This document shows, piece after piece, positions 3,118 to 33,680 of a stretch of DNA of 64,000 bases. The stretch's first letter is position 1. Every line of letters begins with the position of its first letter. Source of the DNA: Dehalococcoidia bacterium (lineage in GTDB: Bacteria; Chloroflexota; Dehalococcoidia; Bin125); the NCBI GenBank assembly GCA_022826965.1, contig JAJDTU010000001.1, positions 310,001 to 374,000 of the forward strand, written 5' to 3'. The translations under genes and the position numbers were made by a program. The notes beneath the pieces are model-generated. The model did no database searches and had not been told where the DNA came from. It saw only the letters and a program-made list of their open reading frames with translations.

Positions 3118-4143
3118 ATGCCCACATTCATCGGCCTCGACCTCGCCTGGGTCAGCAAGAACCAGAGCGGCATCTGCTGGCTAGAGGGCGACTCGAAGGA
3201 GAATCTGCGTTGCACCCGGCTAGACGTGAGGCCTCGACACACTGAGAGCCTCGCCAACGAGATCGCATCCATTGACGACCAAGTCCTCGTCACGATTGAT
3301 GCGCCAGTCCGCTATACGCCCGAACGCTGGTCTGAGCGAGCGCTCAACAGCCGATTCAATCGCTACAAGGCGGGCGCACATTCAGCACATGCCGCATGGA
3401 AGAATGGCTACCGAGCCGGCATCGACCTCGGCAATGCGCTTGAGTCTCGGGGCTTCACTTGTGATCCCTTTGAGCTGCTGCGCGGCGAACGACCAAAGCG
3501 CTCTGCAGTTGAGGTCTACCCGCATACGATCCATGTACGCCTCTTCGGCCTGGATGAACGGCTGCCGTACAAGAGACGCGGCAATGATCGCCCGGTCGAG
3601 TTTCGCCAGCGAGTGTTCCAGCGCTATCAGCGCTACCTGACTGAGCTCATCGGACGCGAGGCTCCAGGAGTGCTCGATAGTGCGGAGATTCGTCGTTTGC
3701 TCGACCCCGAGAATGTGAAGCAGCGCACTACGCATGTTGAGCTGAACTGGATCGACGACGCACTGGACGGCGTCACTTGCGCCATGTCTGCTTGGATGAT
3801 GTGGAACGAGCCAGAGCGTTGGGAAGGAATCGGCGACCAGAACGGCTGCATCGTGGTTCCGAGAGATCTCGAATGGTCAAAGCCTGACGGTCCTCGGCGT
3901 CAACCAAGGCTCGTCAACGAGGCTCCACCCTCATACCGAGCCAAGATCTATCCGAGAGAGCAACGTCCGGCGCATTCGCAGGATCCGAACTGGTCGGTTC
4001 AACAGACCAAGGACGGACTGGACATTCAGATCACCAGCCCGAACGACGATTCAGGATGGAAAATCCGGGTCAGACTTGAGGGCGATGATCTGTCGCGTGT
4101 GGTCACCGTCGTGGAACGCCTGGAAGAGGGGCCAGGCCATTGA
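3118..4143 (+). CDS. DUF429 family protein (putative RNase H-fold nuclease)
   Basis: A 341-residue protein starting with the DUF429 signature MPTFIGLDLAW, followed by TIDAPVRY (around residue 60), both likely parts of an RNase H-like acidic active site. A central SAVEVYPH segment and a later DDALDGVTCAMSAW segment also fit the family. The biochemical role of DUF429 is not established; the nuclease assignment rests on fold predictions for the family. The ATG is 3 bp after the enoyl-CoA hydratase stop. Base composition is lower in GC than the neighbours, which suggests later acquisition. The 3' end overlaps the convergent DinB gene by 93 bp, a long overlap. Confidence 0.8.
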   Translation: MPTFIGLDLAWVSKNQSGICWLEGDSKENLRCTRLDVRPRHTESLANEIASIDDQVLVTIDAPVRYTPERWSERALNSRFNRYKAGAHSAHAAWKNGYRAGIDLGNALESRGFTCDPFELLRGERPKRSAVEVYPHTIHVRLFGLDERLPYKRRGNDRPVEFRQRVFQRYQRYLTELIGREAPGVLDSAEIRRLLDPENVKQRTTHVELNWIDDALDGVTCAMSAWMMWNEPERWEGIGDQNGCIVVPRDLEWSKPDGPRRQPRLVNEAPPSYRAKIYPREQRPAHSQDPNWSVQQTKDGLDIQITSPNDDSGWKIRVRLEGDDLSRVVTVVERLEEGPGH

Positions 4144-7827: not shown

Positions 7828-8061
7828 TCACCCTTCCCGTTTTTTGTCTAGTCTTTGAACCCACCAGATGATTGGGAAACTCACCGCCGAGATCGGCCAG
7901 AACAGGGTCCCGGCGAACCAGAACACGAGAGTGAGCGAGAGGCTCCAAGTGAGGCGGTCGCGTAAGAGCGCCGTCAGGCCGATCCCGAGGACTAGCATTC
8001 CGACCCCGTACGCGACGAAGAAGTGCTCGACCGACAACTGCAGGATTCCGAGGTCAACCAC
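7828..8061 (-). CDS. Small two-helix membrane protein, unknown
   Basis: A 77-residue protein with two hydrophobic helices (about residues 15-33 and 42-66) and a basic C-terminus (RLDKKREG), compatible with a small inner-membrane protein. GTG start at 8061 with only a weak Shine-Dalgarno. No family recognised. It sits alone on the minus strand between phoR and pstS. Clear membrane topology and ORF integrity support it, but a chance ORF cannot be excluded. Confidence 0.5.
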   Translation of the reverse strand: MVDLGILQLSVEHFFVAYGVGMLVLGIGLTALLRDRLTWSLSLTLVFWFAGTLFWPISAVSFPIIWWVQRLDKKREG

Positions 8062-8463
8062 GCTACACCGAGTTGTCGCCGGGCTCTCGACGAGTTCGAT
8101 TCTCGACTTTGATGCTTGTCTGAGCTATGGCGGGCGTGTCGCCGTAGTCGTCGCGCGCCTCCAATTCCAACGGCGTTGACCTGCCCATTGTGAGCGCCTC
8201 CATGATGTGATTCCCAATCGATCAAACCGTATATGACAGAGAGCAGCGCTGCGGCCAGCTAAAGCGTCGCGATGGCGCGCGGGAACGAGCATCAGAAGCG
8301 AATCCAATAACGCCTCTTTAACTCACCGTTATCCGCACGGTTAACGCGCACGCTCCGTATTCGGGAATGCTGTGCATCGCGTACTGAGGCGAGCGCTCAG
8401 GATGGGCGCGCCGCAGCGGGTCGCTCCGGCATCTCGAAATGCCGGGCACCGAGCGAGAGGAGC
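8062..8463. other. Intergenic region upstream of pstS
   Basis: About 400 bp without a convincing gene. It is AT-richer than the neighbours, especially around 8210-8350, and carries the Pho-box-like array described separately. The pstS start follows. Nothing else recognised. Confidence 0.6.
8307..8345 (+). promoter_or_regulatory. Pho-box-like direct-repeat array
   Basis: Four pentamers with near-helical spacing: ATAAC at 8307, TTAAC at 8318, TTATC at 8329 and TTAAC at 8341, giving intervals of 11, 11 and 12 bp. Direct repeats of TTAAC/TTCACC type every 11 bp are the known binding sites of PhoB/PhoP-family regulators. The array lies about 120-160 bp upstream of pstS and downstream of phoB-phoR, so it is the likely activator site for the pst genes. 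The assignment is inference from spacing and context. Confidence 0.6.
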
Positions 8464-10584
8464 GTGATTGCCTTGAACATCACAACGAAGAGGATGACGA
8501 CGCGGCTGCTGCCGCTGTTGATCGTCGCACTGTTGGCGGGCGCCATGGTGCTCGTCGCTTGCGGCGGCGGCGACCAGCAACAGTCGGTCGCTCAGCAGGA
8601 TCAACAGCAGGAGACCGCGCCAGCGCAACAGCGGCAGGACGCGCAGCAGCAGGCCGTCGCCACAGCAGCTCCGACTCAGCAGCAGGAGCAGGAGACCCGC
8701 GAACGTCTGCAAGACATCGAGGGCGAGATCCAGGTCGACGGTTCCTCCACCGTCTTCCCGATCACCGAGGCGATGGCCGAGGAGTTCGGCATTCTGACCG
8801 AGCGCGGCGTGCGCGTGACCGTCGGCGTCTCGGGCACGGGCGGCGGCTTCAAGCGCTTCTGCGCCGGCGAGACCGACATCTCCGACGCCTCGCGCCCGAT
8901 CAAGGAATCTGAAGTCGAGCTCTGCTCCGAGGCCGGAGTTGACTTTATCGAGGTCCCGGTCGCCTTCGACGGTCTGACCGTCGTGATCAACCCCGACAAC
9001 GACTGGGTCGACTTCCTCACCGTGGAAGAGCTCAATCACATCTTCCGCCCGGACGACTTCGCCACCTCCTGGGCCGACGTCCGCGACGGCTTCCCCGACG
9101 TCGAGATCGCGCTCTACGCGCCCGGCGCCGACAGCGGCACCTTCGACTACTTCACCGAAGCCATCAACGGTGACGGCGGCGTTCACCGCTCCGACAACAC
9201 CACCTTCTCCGAGGACGACAATGTCCTCGTTCAGGGCGTATCGGCCGACCGCGGCGGGATTGGCTACTTCGGCTTCAGCTACTACGCCAACAACGCCGAT
9301 GTGCTGAAGGCGGTCCCCGTCGTCAACGACGCCGGTGAGGCGATCACGCCGTCCAACGGGACGATCAACGACGGCTCCTACAACCCGCTCTCGCGGCCGC
9401 TGTTCATCTATGTCTCGGTCGCTTCGCTGGAGCGTGAGGAAGTGGCGGCGTTCGTCGAGTACTTCCTCACCGACGGCGTCTGGCTGGTCGACACGCCTGA
9501 GGTCGGCTACGTGCAGCTGCCCGAGGCCATTTACGCCGCCGCCCTCAAGCGCGTCCACAACGGCGAGACTGGCTCGGCGATCCACAGCGCTCCCGAGGGC
9601 GCCACGCTGGCCCAGATCTTCGGCGCCGCGCCGATGGCAATGGCCATGGATCTCTCCGGACTCGAGGGTGAGATTGCAGTCGACGGTTCTTCGACTGTCT
9701 TCCCGATCACCGAGGCAATGGCCGAGGAGTTCGGCATTCTCACCGACCGCGGCGTCCGCGTGACGGTCGGCGTCTCCGGCACCGGCGGCGGCTTCAAGCG
9801 CTTCTGCGCCGGCGAGACCGACATTTCCGACGCCTCGCGTCCGATCAAGGACGCAGAGGCCGAGTTGTGCGAAGCGGCCGGCATTGACTTCATCGAGGTC
9901 CCGGTGGCGTTCGACGGTCTGACCGTGGTCATCAACCCGGACAACGACTGGGTCGACTTCCTGACGGTGGACGAGCTGAACCACATCTTCCGCCCCGACG
10001 ACTACGCCGTCTCCTGGGCCGACGTTCGCGACGGCTTTCCCGATGTCGAGATCGCGCTCTACGCGCCGGGCGCAGACTCGGGCACGTTCGACTACTTCAC
10101 CGAGGCGATCAACGGCGACAACGGCGTGCACCGGTCCGACAACACGACCTTCTCGGAGGATGACAACGTGCTCGTCCAGGGCGTCTCGAATGACCGCGGC
10201 GGGATCGGCTATTTCGGCTTCAGCTACTACGCCAACAACGCGGATGTGCTGCGGGCCGTTCCGGTGGTCAACGACGCGGGTAACGCCGTGACCCCGTCCA
10301 ACGGCACGATCAACGACGGCTCCTACAACCCGCTCTCGCGGCCGCTGTTCATCTACGTCTCGGTCGCTTCGCTGGAGCGCGAGGAAGTTGCGGCGTTCGT
10401 CGAGTACTTCCTGACGGACGGCGTCTGGCTGGTGGACACGCCCGAGGTTGGCTACGTCCAACTGCCTGAGGCGATCTATGCGGCCGTCCTGTCGCGGGTT
10501 CAGAACACGGTGACCGGTTCCGCCATCGCGGCCGCGTCGGAGGGCGCGACCCTGGCCGAGATATTCGGCGCCGGCGCGGGCTAG
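8464..10584 (+). CDS. pstS: Phosphate-binding lipoprotein PstS with two tandem binding domains
   Basis: A 706-residue lipoprotein. The signal ends in lipobox VAC (Cys33 from the GTG 8464 start); ATG 8494 is an equally good start that still keeps the signal. A Gln-rich linker (about 38-80) leads into two almost identical PBP domains, about residues 85-398 and 400-706. Each has [44 protein letters not shown] and the [11 protein letters not shown] segment typical of PstS phosphate binding. By eye there are roughly 25 differences in about 305 aligned residues, mostly conservative. Usual PstS has one domain of about 300-350 residues. First structural gene of the pst cluster. Confidence 0.92.
8725..10560 (+). 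repeat. Intragenic tandem duplication of the PstS domain
   Basis: Two direct copies of about 900 bp inside pstS, roughly 8725-9610 and 9670-10555, with a period of 945 bp (for example VDGSS codons at 8734 and 9679). The copies differ at many third codon positions but at few amino acids, so both appear to have been kept under selection after duplication. Confidence 0.85.
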
Positions 10585-10984
10585 GCGCCGCACGCCCGGC
10601 TCGCCCGCACCCAGCTTCGATCCCCCCGCTCCCGGTTTCGATCCCCCCGCTCTCCAGGTTCGATCCCCCGTGCTTGACACGGGGGGCTGGACCCCGCGTC
10701 AAGTGCGGGGCATCGGGGAATCGGGTCCCCTTCCCGCGCCCCGGGTTCGATCCCCCAGCGCTCGGCTTCGATCCCCCCGCCCGGCTTCGATCCCCCCGCT
10801 GCTGGCTTCGATCCCCCGTGCTTGACACAGGGGCCAGCGCCTCGCATCAAGTGCGCTGTTTGTCAGAGCGCCGGACGACTTACTCAGTGTTAACCGCCGC
10901 CGCGTTCGTCGCTCCTAGTTTGCCCGCAATGCAATGAAGCTCCGCCGTGAGCCTCCTCCAGTCCGATCAGCGAAGAGTTCCGAT
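10585..10984. repeat. Intergenic cluster of seven TTCGATCCCCC repeats
   Basis: The pstS-pstC gap holds seven copies of TTCGATCCCCC starting at 10616, 10637, 10659, 10746, 10767, 10786 and 10807, with irregular spacing (19-22 bp within two groups). Two copies of GTGCTTGACAC (10670, 10818) and a hairpin CCCCGC-7-GCGGGG at about 10692-10710 lie among them. A TTAACC motif at 10890 precedes pstC. No ORF here has coding character. Confidence 0.7.
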
Positions 10985-11980
10985 ATGGCAGCACAGGCTC
11001 CCCGCGATCCGCGTGGAGGACCGCCACAGGACACCGTCCGATCCCTGCTGGCGGAGCTGTGGCGCGACAAGCTGCAACCGTCGCGGCCGGGCAGCGGTCG
11101 CGAGACGCTGACCGGACGCATAATCCACGGCGCGCTGTTCCTGACGGCGACGCTCTCCGCGTTCGTCACGATCGGCATCGTCCTGGTGCTGATCTTCGAG
11201 ACGGTCGAGTTCTTCCGCGAAGTCCCCTTCATCGACTTCTTCGGTTCGACCAAGTGGTCGGCGCTGTTCGCCGAGAAGCAGTTCGGCGTCTGGGCGCTGG
11301 TCTGGGGCACCGGCATGATCGCCCTGATCGGGCTGGCCGTCGCCATTCCCCTCGGCCTGATGGCGGCCGTCTTCCTCAGCGAGTATTCGCCCCCGCGCGT
11401 TCGCGCGATCATCAAGCCGATCCTCGAGATCCTCGCCGGCGTGCCGACGGTGGTCTTCGGCTACTTCGCCCTGGTCTCGGTCTCGCCGGTGATTCGCGAC
11501 ATCTTCGGCGAGGACGTCGGCATCTACAACGCGCTTTCGGCCGGCATCGTGGTCGGGCTGATGATCGTGCCGATCATCGCCTCGCTGTCAGAGGACGCGA
11601 TGAGAGCCGTCCCGCGCTCGCTGCGCGAGGGCGCGTATGCACTCGGTTCGACGCGGATGGAGGTCTCGCTCCGCGTCGTCTTGCCGGCTGCCTTCTCCGG
11701 GGTCGTCGCCTCGATCATCCTGGCAGCCTCTCGCGCCGTCGGCGAGACGATGGCCGTGACCATCGCCGGCGGCGGCAACCCGCAGTTCGGGGTCAACCCG
11801 CTCGAGGCGGTGCAGACGATGACCGCGATGATCGTCCAGCTCTCGCTGGGCGACACCCCGACGACATCGATCGAGTTCAAGGTGTTGTTCGCCGTCGCGA
11901 TGACGCTGTTCGTGCTCACCCTGGCGATGAACATCGTCGCGCAATGGGTCTCGCAACGCTTCCGGGAGGAGTACGAATGA
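10985..11980 (+). CDS. pstC: Phosphate ABC transporter permease PstC
   Basis: A 331-residue inner-membrane permease of the high-affinity phosphate importer. ATG 10985 is preferred because AAGAG lies 7 bp upstream; an in-frame ATG at 10934 lacks a ribosome site. A long N-terminal cytoplasmic segment precedes the first membrane helix ([24 protein letters not shown]). The family blocks [18 protein letters not shown] and [47 protein letters not shown] (EAA-type loop that contacts PstB) are intact. Its stop overlaps the pstA start by 4 bp. Confidence 0.92.
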
Positions 11981-26879: not shown

Positions 26880-26949
26880 TCTGACTCAGGTCGTTGCGCG
26901 GTCAGCGAATAGCGGGTTAGCAGTCCGCAATTCCTGGCCAATGTTCTTG

Positions 26950-27039
26950 GGGGGCGTGGCGGAATGGTAGACGCTGCGGTCTAGCACACCGTTGTGAGGA
27001 CACTCTCACGTGCAGGTTCAAGTCCTGTCGCCCCTACCA
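26950..27039 (+). tRNA. Class II tRNA, anticodon position AGC (leucine-like body)
   Basis: A complete cloverleaf of 90 nt including encoded CCA. Acceptor GGGGGCG (26950-26956) pairs with CGCCCCT (27029-27035; G1-U72 wobble), then discriminator A and CCA. D-arm GCG/CGC with GG in the loop; anticodon stem GCGGT/ACCGT with 7-nt loop CTAGCAC (26981-26987); long variable arm with GTGAG/CTCAC stem; T-arm GCAGG-TTCAAGT-CCTGT. The long arm, TGGCGGAATGGTAGACGC start and A73 resemble tRNA-Leu, but U33 is followed by AGC, nominally an alanine anticodon. There is no G3-U70 pair, the usual alanine identity. Specificity is therefore unresolved. Confidence 0.8.
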
Positions 27040-27146: not shown

Positions 27147-27329
27147 CTAAGCCAGCGCCAACATCTGTTCCGGCGTGCCCAACTCCCGCAGGTTCTGGCG
27201 CCCAGCGAATTCCGCCACGTACCTGTGGAGATGCATGAGGCTCCAGGTGTGGTAGGTCCCGATGTAGCCACGCTTGAGCATCGACCAGAAGCTCTCAATG
27301 CCCTGGGTGTGCACTTCGCCTCTGAAGTT
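27147..27329 (-). pseudogene. IS1595-family transposase, C-terminal remnant
   Basis: On the minus strand a 60-residue open stretch contains GIESFWSMLKRGYIGTYH and WSLMHLHRYVAEFAGRQN, the conserved C-terminal part of ISXO2/IS1595-like transposases, ending at a TAG at 27147. It is closed upstream by an in-frame TGA at 27330-27332 and lacks the rest of the transposase and any start. No flanking terminal inverted repeats were found. A dead fragment next to a frameshifted gene. Confidence 0.7.
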
Positions 27330-27399
27330 TCACCGTGTGAGTGAGTGACCGTCTGCCTGCGCGGTGTCGAGGGTGACATACAGGTATGCCCTTGCTGTA

Positions 27400-27687
27400 G
27401 GCGACATAGATTGGTCTTCTGCGTTGCTCAACTGCCTTGCGAGAGCAGAGGTTCTTGAAGTCGGTGTCGATGACCAGGTCGAGAGGCGGTCGAGAGGCGG
27501 TGGTAGGCGCCGATGTGGGTGGCGTTGGGTTCGGGGCAGAAGGTGACGGGAAGTTGAGGTCGCTGGAGTCGGGGTCGAAGTGGCCGGTGGCGGCGGAGCC
27601 GAAGAGGTCGAGGCGCGGGACCTGGTGTTTGCGGCAGAGGTCGGCGATCTCTTTGGATCGTTCGGCGACCAGGGGAATGGGGGCCAT
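27400..27687 (-). pseudogene. MNT-type nucleotidyltransferase, frameshifted
   Basis: Starts at 27687 with IADLCRKHQVPRLDLFGSAA and FDPDSSDLNF, the minimal nucleotidyltransferase GS(x)9-12DxD-type region. The frame then slips: the next family-like piece VTFCPEPNATHIGAYHRL is in another frame, and LDLVIDTDFKN...RRRPIYVA returns to the first. Two frameshifts (about 27550 and 27490) are needed to restore an intact protein. Such proteins usually serve as the antitoxin-side partner of HepT/HEPN genes, but no HEPN gene is seen here. Confidence 0.7.
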
Positions 27688-31233: not shown

Positions 31234-31842
31234 TCAGGCGTCGAGGGATTGCTGGACGCCCTGTTGGCGCTTGCGTCGTGGGGCTCTGCGGAAGGTCTGG
31301 GGGGCGGCGAAGCGGGGGTAGTCGGGCTGGTCTCCGTTGAGCAGTTGCTCGATGGTGAGGATCTGGACCCTGGGGTATTGGTTGCCGGGCAGGGCGTCGG
31401 GCTCGTAGAAGCCGGCGGCGATCGCTTCCTGGTTCATGGGGTTGGTCGGCTCCTCGAGGGTGATGAAGATGGCGACGGCGGTGTCCTGGGGCAGCCCGAT
31501 GACGGTGTGGTCGGAGAGTTCGGCGGGGCGCTAGGCCATCATGTCGTTCTGGCCGAGGAACTCGCGCATGGCCTGGAGCAGCTTGCCCAGCTTGTCGGGG
31601 CCGTCGGTGACGACCTCCTGGTAGGCGCGCTCGGAGTCCATGGTCCAGTGCCACGAGTCGTCGAAGGCGGTGATCTGAGCGGCGGAATCCTCGCCGGAGC
31701 GCTCCTTGAAGAGGACGTTGTACGTGGCGTTGGAGTTGAAGGGCGGGTCGAGGTAGATGAGGTCGACTGACTCGTTGGGGATGTGTTCGCGGAGGACGGA
31801 GAGGTTGTCGCCGAAGTACAGCTGGCTGGTCCAGGGGGTCAT
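31234..31842 (-). pseudogene. Site-specific DNA methyltransferase, internally deleted
   Basis: Two pieces of one N6-adenine/N4-cytosine-type methyltransferase in the same frame. The 5' piece (31842-31531) has LYFGDNLSVLREHIPNESVDLIYLDPPFNSNATYNVLF with catalytic DPPF and ends NDMMA-stop. The 3' piece (to 31234) begins just after with TVIGLPQDTAVAIFITLEEP and NQEAIAAGFYEPD, typical of the far C-terminus of this family. Hundreds of residues between them, including the SAM-binding FxG region, are missing, and a TAG sits at the junction. No cognate restriction gene is present. Non-functional. Confidence 0.75.
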
Positions 31843-33278: not shown

Positions 33279-33680
33279 GTGCGCTATCTCCTTGACACCG
33301 ACTGGGTGATCGACGCCCTCAGAGGCCGACGCGCCTCCGCGCAGGCTCGCCATCGCATTGATCAGCTTGCCCCACGGGGCATCGCAATCAGCGTGATCTC
33401 CTTGGCCGAGCTATCGGTCGGGCCCAATCTGGTGGAGCCTTCAGTGCAGTCGCGCACGGAGATGCTCAGCTTCATCGAGGAGTTCACGTTGCTGGCGGTC
33501 GACGCGACCACCTGCGAGATCTTCGGAAGAGTCAAGGCCAACCTGCAACTGCGCGGGCAACTGATCGACGACTTCGACACCATGATTGGCGCGACCGCGC
33601 TTCAGCACGACCTTACTCTGCTGACCAACAACATCCGCCACTTTGAGCGCATCGATGGGCTGCGGTTCGAAACCCTGTGA
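33279..33680 (+). CDS. vapC: PIN-domain toxin (VapC family)
   Basis: A 133-residue PIN-domain ribonuclease. Acidic residues are in place: YLLDTDWVIDAL (first Asp), SLAELSVG (Glu), LIDDFDTMIGATAL (Asp) and LLTNNIRHFERI near the end. VapC toxins cleave tRNA or rRNA when freed from antitoxin. GTG start at 33279, 3 bp after the presumed antitoxin stop. The family's usual length of about 130 residues is kept, so it is likely functional. Confidence 0.82.
   Translation: MRYLLDTDWVIDALRGRRASAQARHRIDQLAPRGIAISVISLAELSVGPNLVEPSVQSRTEMLSFIEEFTLLAVDATTCEIFGRVKANLQLRGQLIDDFDTMIGATALQHDLTLLTNNIRHFERIDGLRFETL

Follow-up and report, generated by a model that had tools for sequence, protein, structure and literature searches.

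The stretch of DNA analyzed here, hereafter the window, is 64,000 nucleotides long and contains a single tRNA gene according to ARAGORN, which lies on the plus strand and carries an AGC anticodon. The gene is flanked by one hairpin on each side and is followed by a remnant of a transposase gene of the IS1595/ISXO2 type. The features of the locus are collected in Table 1.

Table 1. Features around the window tRNA gene.
Position	Strand	Feature	Basis or remark
26950..27039	+	Class II tRNA with a leucine-type body, AGC anticodon, A73 and encoded CCA	ARAGORN, Rfam, arm layout, masked-isotype comparison
26983..26985	+	AGC anticodon, positions 34-36, within loop CUAGCAC	
27150..27386	-	3' remnant of IS1595/ISXO2-type transposase gene, C-terminal part of the DDE domain	PF12762
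26861..27088	+	Block homologous to the flanks of the G008 GUC tRNA	76%, 228 bp
26900..26939	+	Upstream hairpin, loop UUAGCAG	Repeats the core of the tRNA's anticodon loop
27046..27074	+	Downstream imperfect hairpin AGGCAGCC...GGCUGUUGCCU	Conserved in G008

A leucine-type tRNA with an AGC anticodon

The acceptor stem of the window tRNA reads GGGGGCG/CGCCCCU with a G1-U72 end and is followed by U8 and G9. The D stem consists of three pairs, and the D loop contains the GG pair of residues at G18G19. The anticodon stem, GCGGU/ACCGU, closes a 7-base loop (26981-26987) and is followed by a variable arm of 19 nt and a T arm with the stem GCAGG/CCUGU and the loop UUCAAGU. The gene therefore has U8, A14, G18G19, U33, A73, an encoded CCA, and a long variable arm. 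The Rfam tRNA model RF00005 matches it over the full length (positions 1-71) with 50.7 bits and an E value of 6.4e-08, above the gathering score of 29 bits; in that search, the class II tRNAs of the host itself reach about 49-59 bits. When the anticodon loops were masked and the gene was compared with a reference set from its own genome and relatives, the nearest isotype was Leu, far ahead of the others. A preliminary description, made from the sequence alone, had called a complete class II leucine-like cloverleaf with A73 and CCA, and the ARAGORN call, the RF00005 score, and the masked isotype bear this out. It had also placed AGC at positions 34-36. Because the stem permits no other 7-base loop, the anticodon is indeed AGC.

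Comparison with the tRNA sets of the host returned a Leu-type body and a non-Ala 3-70 pair. As had been noticed before, a G3-U70 pair is lacking; the pair at 3-70 is G-C, whereas the three tRNA-Ala genes of the host (UGC, GGC, and CGC) all have G3-U70 together with a short variable loop. Measured against the features of tRNA-Leu, the window tRNA has A73, the large variable arm, U8, and A14 but departs from them in its anticodon, which is neither NAG nor YAA and has G35 in place of A35. Of the features of tRNA-Ala, it has neither the G3-U70 pair nor the short class I variable loop. The ordinary tRNA-Leu set of the host (UAA, CAA, UAG, GAG, and CAG) is complete, and so is its tRNA-Ala set. The preliminary description was also right to regard A34 as unusual, for the host tRNA-Arg that reads CGN codons has GCG, not ACG, and a search with the deaminase family PF14437 found no TadA in the host genome. 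Formation of inosine at A34 by TadA was considered and rejected, as the sole PF14437 match in the genome is a RibD-like protein. Based on the anticodon of the tRNA-Arg and this single match, A34 of the window tRNA is likely unmodified. Within the long open reading frames of the window, GCU accounts for 11% of the alanine codons.

Probable remains of a transposon beside the window gene

The transposase remnant is convergent with the tRNA gene, as in the intact ACC element of the host described below, and ends about 110 bases downstream of it. It consists of an open piece (27150-27329) and a longer match (27192-27386, PF12762 E value of 2.1e-11) with one TGA inside; a second PF12762 match covers positions 111-153 of the family (E value of 1.7e-11). 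Genomes of the genus have 0-3 IS1595 matches each; the genome of the window (3.0 Mb) has three, and two of these loci adjoin its two chimeric tRNAs. A genome of the same genus, G008, holds a homologue of the window tRNA that is 78% identical and has a GUC anticodon. Homology between the two loci ends on both sides of the 228-bp block, the transposase piece excepted, and this points to the window and G008 copies being independently inserted relatives. Three scans around the window tRNA gave no terminal inverted repeats and no 8-bp duplication, and neither inverted repeats nor a target duplication were found around the G008 tRNA. As no ends were found, the window copy is assigned to an element from its transposase remnant, its common layout with the ACC element, and its homology to G008. 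On these grounds we infer that it is most likely a tRNA that has outlived the decay of its element.

The hairpin upstream of the tRNA has a homologue in G008 (L068, ∼10110, minus strand), which has UUGUCAAG and repeats the GUC of that genome's own tRNA. The outer stems of the two hairpins differ by compensatory changes (GGUCAG/CUGGCC versus GGGUAG/CUACCC). This upstream anticodon hairpin could reflect partial duplication or co-selection, and it follows no clear rule in the other elements. Strong hairpins are found close upstream of most chimeric tRNAs; a special upstream hairpin was rejected as a family feature, as such hairpins are also common before the ordinary tRNAs of the host (p = 0.09). 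The hairpin downstream of the window tRNA is a possible terminator or processing site.

An open reading frame on the minus strand (27295-27687) overlaps the edge of the transposase remnant. It has a weak, below cut-off match to the nucleotidyltransferase family PF01909 and possibly marks the cause of the truncation. Inspection by eye suggested a PIN-domain (VapC-like) open reading frame (33279-33680, plus strand) and a fragment that resembles an adenine or cytosine-N4 DNA methylase (31531-31842, minus strand), both within a few kilobases of the tRNA.

Chimeric tRNAs in related genomes and their IS1595 elements

The second chimeric gene of the host, a class II gene on contig 13 that ARAGORN calls tRNA-Gly(ACC), shares its leucine-type body and its acceptor ends with the window tRNA. 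The class to which the host belongs is probably Dehalococcoidia (Chloroflexota): in one of its families, complete genomes of 1.4-1.9 Mb each contain 19-30 reductive dehalogenase matches, a pattern that points to Dehalococcoides and Dehalogenimonas, and the genome of the window contains none. We scanned 393 genomes of the class, without regard to gene context, with a leucine-body pattern that requires a non-A at position 35. The scan returned seven genes, namely the window AGC gene, the ACC gene, the GUC gene, two identical CGC genes in G011, a CGC gene in G217, and a UGG gene in G171, and the reversed control pattern gave zero matches in the 393 genomes. The complementary pattern, with A35 within a non-leucine anticodon, was run on the same genomes in the same context-free manner and added a single gene, with UAC, in G083. 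A phylum-wide sample contained two more chimeras outside the class, with AUC in G454 and UGG in G475. With the loop masked, Leu was the nearest isotype for all seven leucine-body chimeras.

The two scans of the class thus gave eight leucine-body chimeras, six of which are in or beside IS1595 elements, at most 1.7 kb from the transposase. About 0.1-0.2% of the DNA lies that close, with ∼80 IS1595 matches in the 148 genomes of the class sample, and our estimate from these counts is a chance of ∼1e-12 for five of seven (the G011 pair being counted once). No IS1595 transposase was found beside the G217, G171, G454, and G475 chimeras on the stretches examined. The G475 tRNA (UGG, leucine-type body) lies close inside a 3.2-kb inverted-repeat pair, TGTGAAATTCTGGCC / TGTGAATTACTGGCC (L333, ∼7900-11100), which comes without a matching duplication and is possibly another type of mobile element. 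Two further leads were abandoned. The G1-U72 acceptor end is not a mark of the family, as it occurs in at least 135 ordinary Leu(UAA/CAA/UAG) tRNAs elsewhere; among the matches listed, from bacteria outside the lineage and from viruses, 135 of 135 tRNAs that share these acceptor ends carry a normal Leu anticodon. A phage origin was likewise dropped, as the 16 matches of the acceptor-end pattern in IMG/VR are all ordinary Leu.

The host ACC tRNA lies inside an intact 3680-bp element with near-identical terminal inverted repeats, an exact 8-bp target duplication (AACACGCG), and a transposase with zinc-ribbon and DDE_Tnp_IS1595 domains. G011 has a full-length element of 3118 bp, with transposase and CGC tRNA (duplication ACCCGAAA), and a 407-bp derivative that has lost the transposase and kept the identical tRNA (duplication TTTCTTTC). 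These two copies are on different contigs, both have the 24-bp terminal repeats GGGGATTACAGGGCTGAGTAACCA with one mismatch, and their tRNA has no encoded CCA. In G083, the UAC tRNA is inside a 3469-bp element alongside an irregular tRNA-like gene with U73. The intact 2904-bp element of G014 contains two class I tRNAs on the minus strand, one with GAC (L291, 3570-3645) and one with ACC (3722-3798); the body of each is of the arginine type (A20), and their anticodon stems have mismatches. Exact duplications flank the G083 and G014 elements (TTAAAAAG and CAGAGCTT, respectively). Enclosing terminal repeats with an exact 8-bp duplication are therefore present for the host ACC, G011, G014, and G083 tRNAs; a tRNA with U73 and a UGC anticodon in G069 lies in a less certain element. 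Similar ends (GGGGATTATAT...) and exact 8-bp duplications are found at many IS1595 loci of the class. Every tRNA found within a delimited element is odd in the match between body and anticodon. Ordinary tRNAs were not found inside the delimited elements, and the ordinary tRNAs nearby lie outside wherever the ends were located.

The other cargo varies. The G011 element encodes a C5-methyltransferase and a GIY-YIG nuclease, and secreted and coiled-coil proteins occur elsewhere. No partner protein common to all elements was found, and because the cargo differs between elements, no shared partner explains the tRNAs. Eight other IS1595 loci were searched with Rfam for tRNA-like cargo that might have been overlooked, and none gave a match. 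Directly downstream of the CGC tRNA in L214 (G011), and likewise in L213, is a 72-base tRNA-like sequence, GGGGCGUG...CACGCUCCACCA, with the loop CUUCCGA and a reduced D arm. ARAGORN calls it Gly(UCC) at a lowered threshold only, and with it this transposon carries an additional tRNA of irregular form.

In the seven distinct leucine-body sequences, each of the 140 stem pairs scored is a standard one, A73 and U33 never vary, and each sequence has a 7-bp acceptor stem and a 5-bp T stem. The acceptor, anticodon, and T stems nevertheless differ greatly from one sequence to another, and in many pairs, those of the anticodon stem included, both partners have changed. Simple decay is unlikely because the pairs are intact despite so many compensatory changes. 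The covariation argues against neutral decay and is evidence of selection on the cloverleaf; it does not reveal which function is selected, and part of the signal must predate the insertions. The same pairing and covariation weaken the suggestion in the preliminary description that the gene may be a pseudo-tRNA.

A possible function and its alternatives

The reading that we favor, with moderate confidence, is that the window gene encodes a tRNA carried as cargo by an IS1595-family transposon, with a Leu body and a replaced anticodon, which is leucylated and could in principle misread GCU. The preliminary description had already proposed misreading of GCU in the event of leucylation, and this is still the likeliest guess at a function. 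A leucine tRNA body would have been given a foreign anticodon, AGC here and ACC, GUC, CGC, or UAC in the sister elements, and the cargo tRNA would be transcribed and matured. The host LeuRS would then charge it with leucine by reading A73 and the core, not the anticodon, and the charged tRNA, on entering the ribosome, would insert leucine at GCU (alanine) codons. The charging, the decoding, and the benefit to element or host are steps that we infer. A swapped anticodon need not block leucylation, because the determinants of leucine identity in bacteria are A73, features of the core, and the large variable arm, with none in the anticodon (PMC9976931). Charging, in turn, need not mean decoding, because the nev-tRNAs of nematodes are leucylated in vitro and are mature in vivo yet cause no detectable misincorporation (PMC4300185). 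Other points that count against this reading are the stem mismatches of the G014 tRNAs, the missing CCA in G011, the failure to find ends around the window and G008 copies, and the four chimeras with no IS1595 transposase on the stretches examined. A bolder proposal, which we put forward only tentatively and consider rather doubtful, is that a lineage of IS1595 transposons keeps tRNAs whose anticodons are selected to mismatch their bodies, so that the host would misincorporate amino acids at particular sense codons, as an addiction, competition, or defense device; codon-specific mistranslation would then be spread by transposition.

One alternative is that the tRNA genes were captured by accident, that their anticodons drifted once redundant, and that the window copy is a dying pseudogene. 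The decay of the window element, with its truncated transposase and missing ends, fits such a history, as do the irregular tRNAs among the sisters, and in eukaryotes, tRNA-derived repeats that are decaying typically show disagreement between isotype and anticodon (PMC8450103). We nonetheless regard a neutral relic as unlikely. Drift would break stems before it yielded seven clean 7-base loops and would leave ordinary tRNAs in some elements, whereas the stem pairs are all intact with compensation, U33 and the T loop are kept, and the anticodons are without exception non-leucine. A role outside translation, in which the RNA would lure anticodon-cutting toxins, donate aminoacyl groups, or act in regulation while decoding is incidental or prevented, would agree with the diversity of the anticodons, the irregular second tRNA-like sequences in the G011, G014, and G083 elements, the anticodon hairpin repeated upstream of the tRNA in both the window and G008, and the methyltransferase and nuclease of G011. 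Irregular, inactive allo-tRNAs are also reported on in a review (PMC7609411). Such a role seems improbable to us, as the elements share no partner protein and the tRNA, with U33 and in most cases CCA, is competent for decoding and conserved beyond the needs of a decoy.

That the gene is a true alanine tRNA, a substrate of AlaRS whose variable arm has lengthened, is very improbable. AGC does pair with GCU and A73 is common to Ala and Leu, but G3-U70, the main determinant for AlaRS and present in the three tRNA-Ala of the host, is absent, and the leucine-type body is the same one that bears Gly, Asp, Val, and Pro anticodons in the sisters. The least credible reading, to be discounted almost entirely, is an error of sequencing or assembly or a chance cloverleaf. 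The assembly is a draft of 14 contigs, yet the E value of the Rfam match, the homologues in several genomes, whose non-leucine anticodons differ from one another and whose stems show compensation, and the two identical G011 copies on different contigs all contradict it. The loop-shifting sequencing error that the preliminary description had named as a refutation is very unlikely because the homologue in G008 has another non-leucine anticodon at that place. As a whole, the observation in that description is confirmed and its interpretation is partly supported; what it missed is the family link, visible through other genomes, that makes the gene one of the chimeric tRNAs borne by IS1595-type transposons.

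The elements resemble the IS1595 family in their transposase (Zn-ribbon and DDE_Tnp_IS1595), GG-ended repeats, 8-bp duplications, and extra cargo genes. Siguier et al. reportedly described IS1595-family elements with additional genes in 2009 (cited in PMC12561309 and PMC8101967). The 8-bp duplications and GG-ended inverted repeats are given as family traits in two papers (PMC8101967, PMC12561309). In the open-access literature, we found no description of tRNA genes as IS1595 cargo. The closest relatives of the window tRNA are the allo-tRNAs and the nev-tRNAs, and it belongs to neither. The allo-tRNAs of Mukai et al. (2017), as a review presents them, are likewise bacterial class II tRNAs with anticodons foreign to the body, for 35 of 64 codons, and an identity set by the body (PMC7609411). 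According to the same review, they are serine-type (G73) with a 12-bp acceptor branch of 8/4 or 9/3, whereas the window tRNA is leucine-type with A73 and 7/5; moreover, the sister chimeras here sit within delimited IS1595 elements. One allo-tRNA pseudogene is said there to overlap a transposon-related open reading frame, and a link to transposons or toxin-antitoxin systems is suggested (PMC7609411). The nev-tRNAs share the long variable arm, the leucine type, a foreign Gly (CCC) or Ile (UAU) anticodon, and leucylation in vitro but are a nuclear family of nematodes not known as transposon cargo, whereas the window gene is bacterial (PMC4300185). The isotype-anticodon test of tRNAscan-SE 2.0 should flag the window tRNA, although such a flag is an annotation mark rather than a family and gives no bacterial mobile context (PMC8450103).

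Provided that the charging of each tRNA follows its body, these transposons would carry portable missense suppressors, a mobile cargo class of which we found no description in the open-access literature. This raises the possibility that mobile DNA makes its host misread the genetic code. The system would then offer a direct test of how cells tolerate codon ambiguity and of its exploitation by selfish DNA, and it would bear on whether allo-tRNA-like genes are linked to transposable elements, as has been suggested but not demonstrated. For genetic-code work, the chimeras provide natural leucine-tRNA scaffolds whose anticodons have been rewritten. They also carry a warning, as annotation that relies on the anticodon labels them wrongly as Ala, Gly, Asp, or Val tRNAs.

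Two minor observations concern partial copies of tRNA genes. At G000:C4:491232-492248, a partial copy of tRNA-Arg(UCU) (492191-492248) lies about 900 bases past an intact tRNA-Arg(UCU) and resembles what remains after an element has integrated into a tRNA gene. At G000:C4:678415-678598, the 5' part of a tRNA-Gly(UCC), its 3' half degenerate, lies immediately before an intact tRNA-Gly(UCC), forming a tandem partial duplication.
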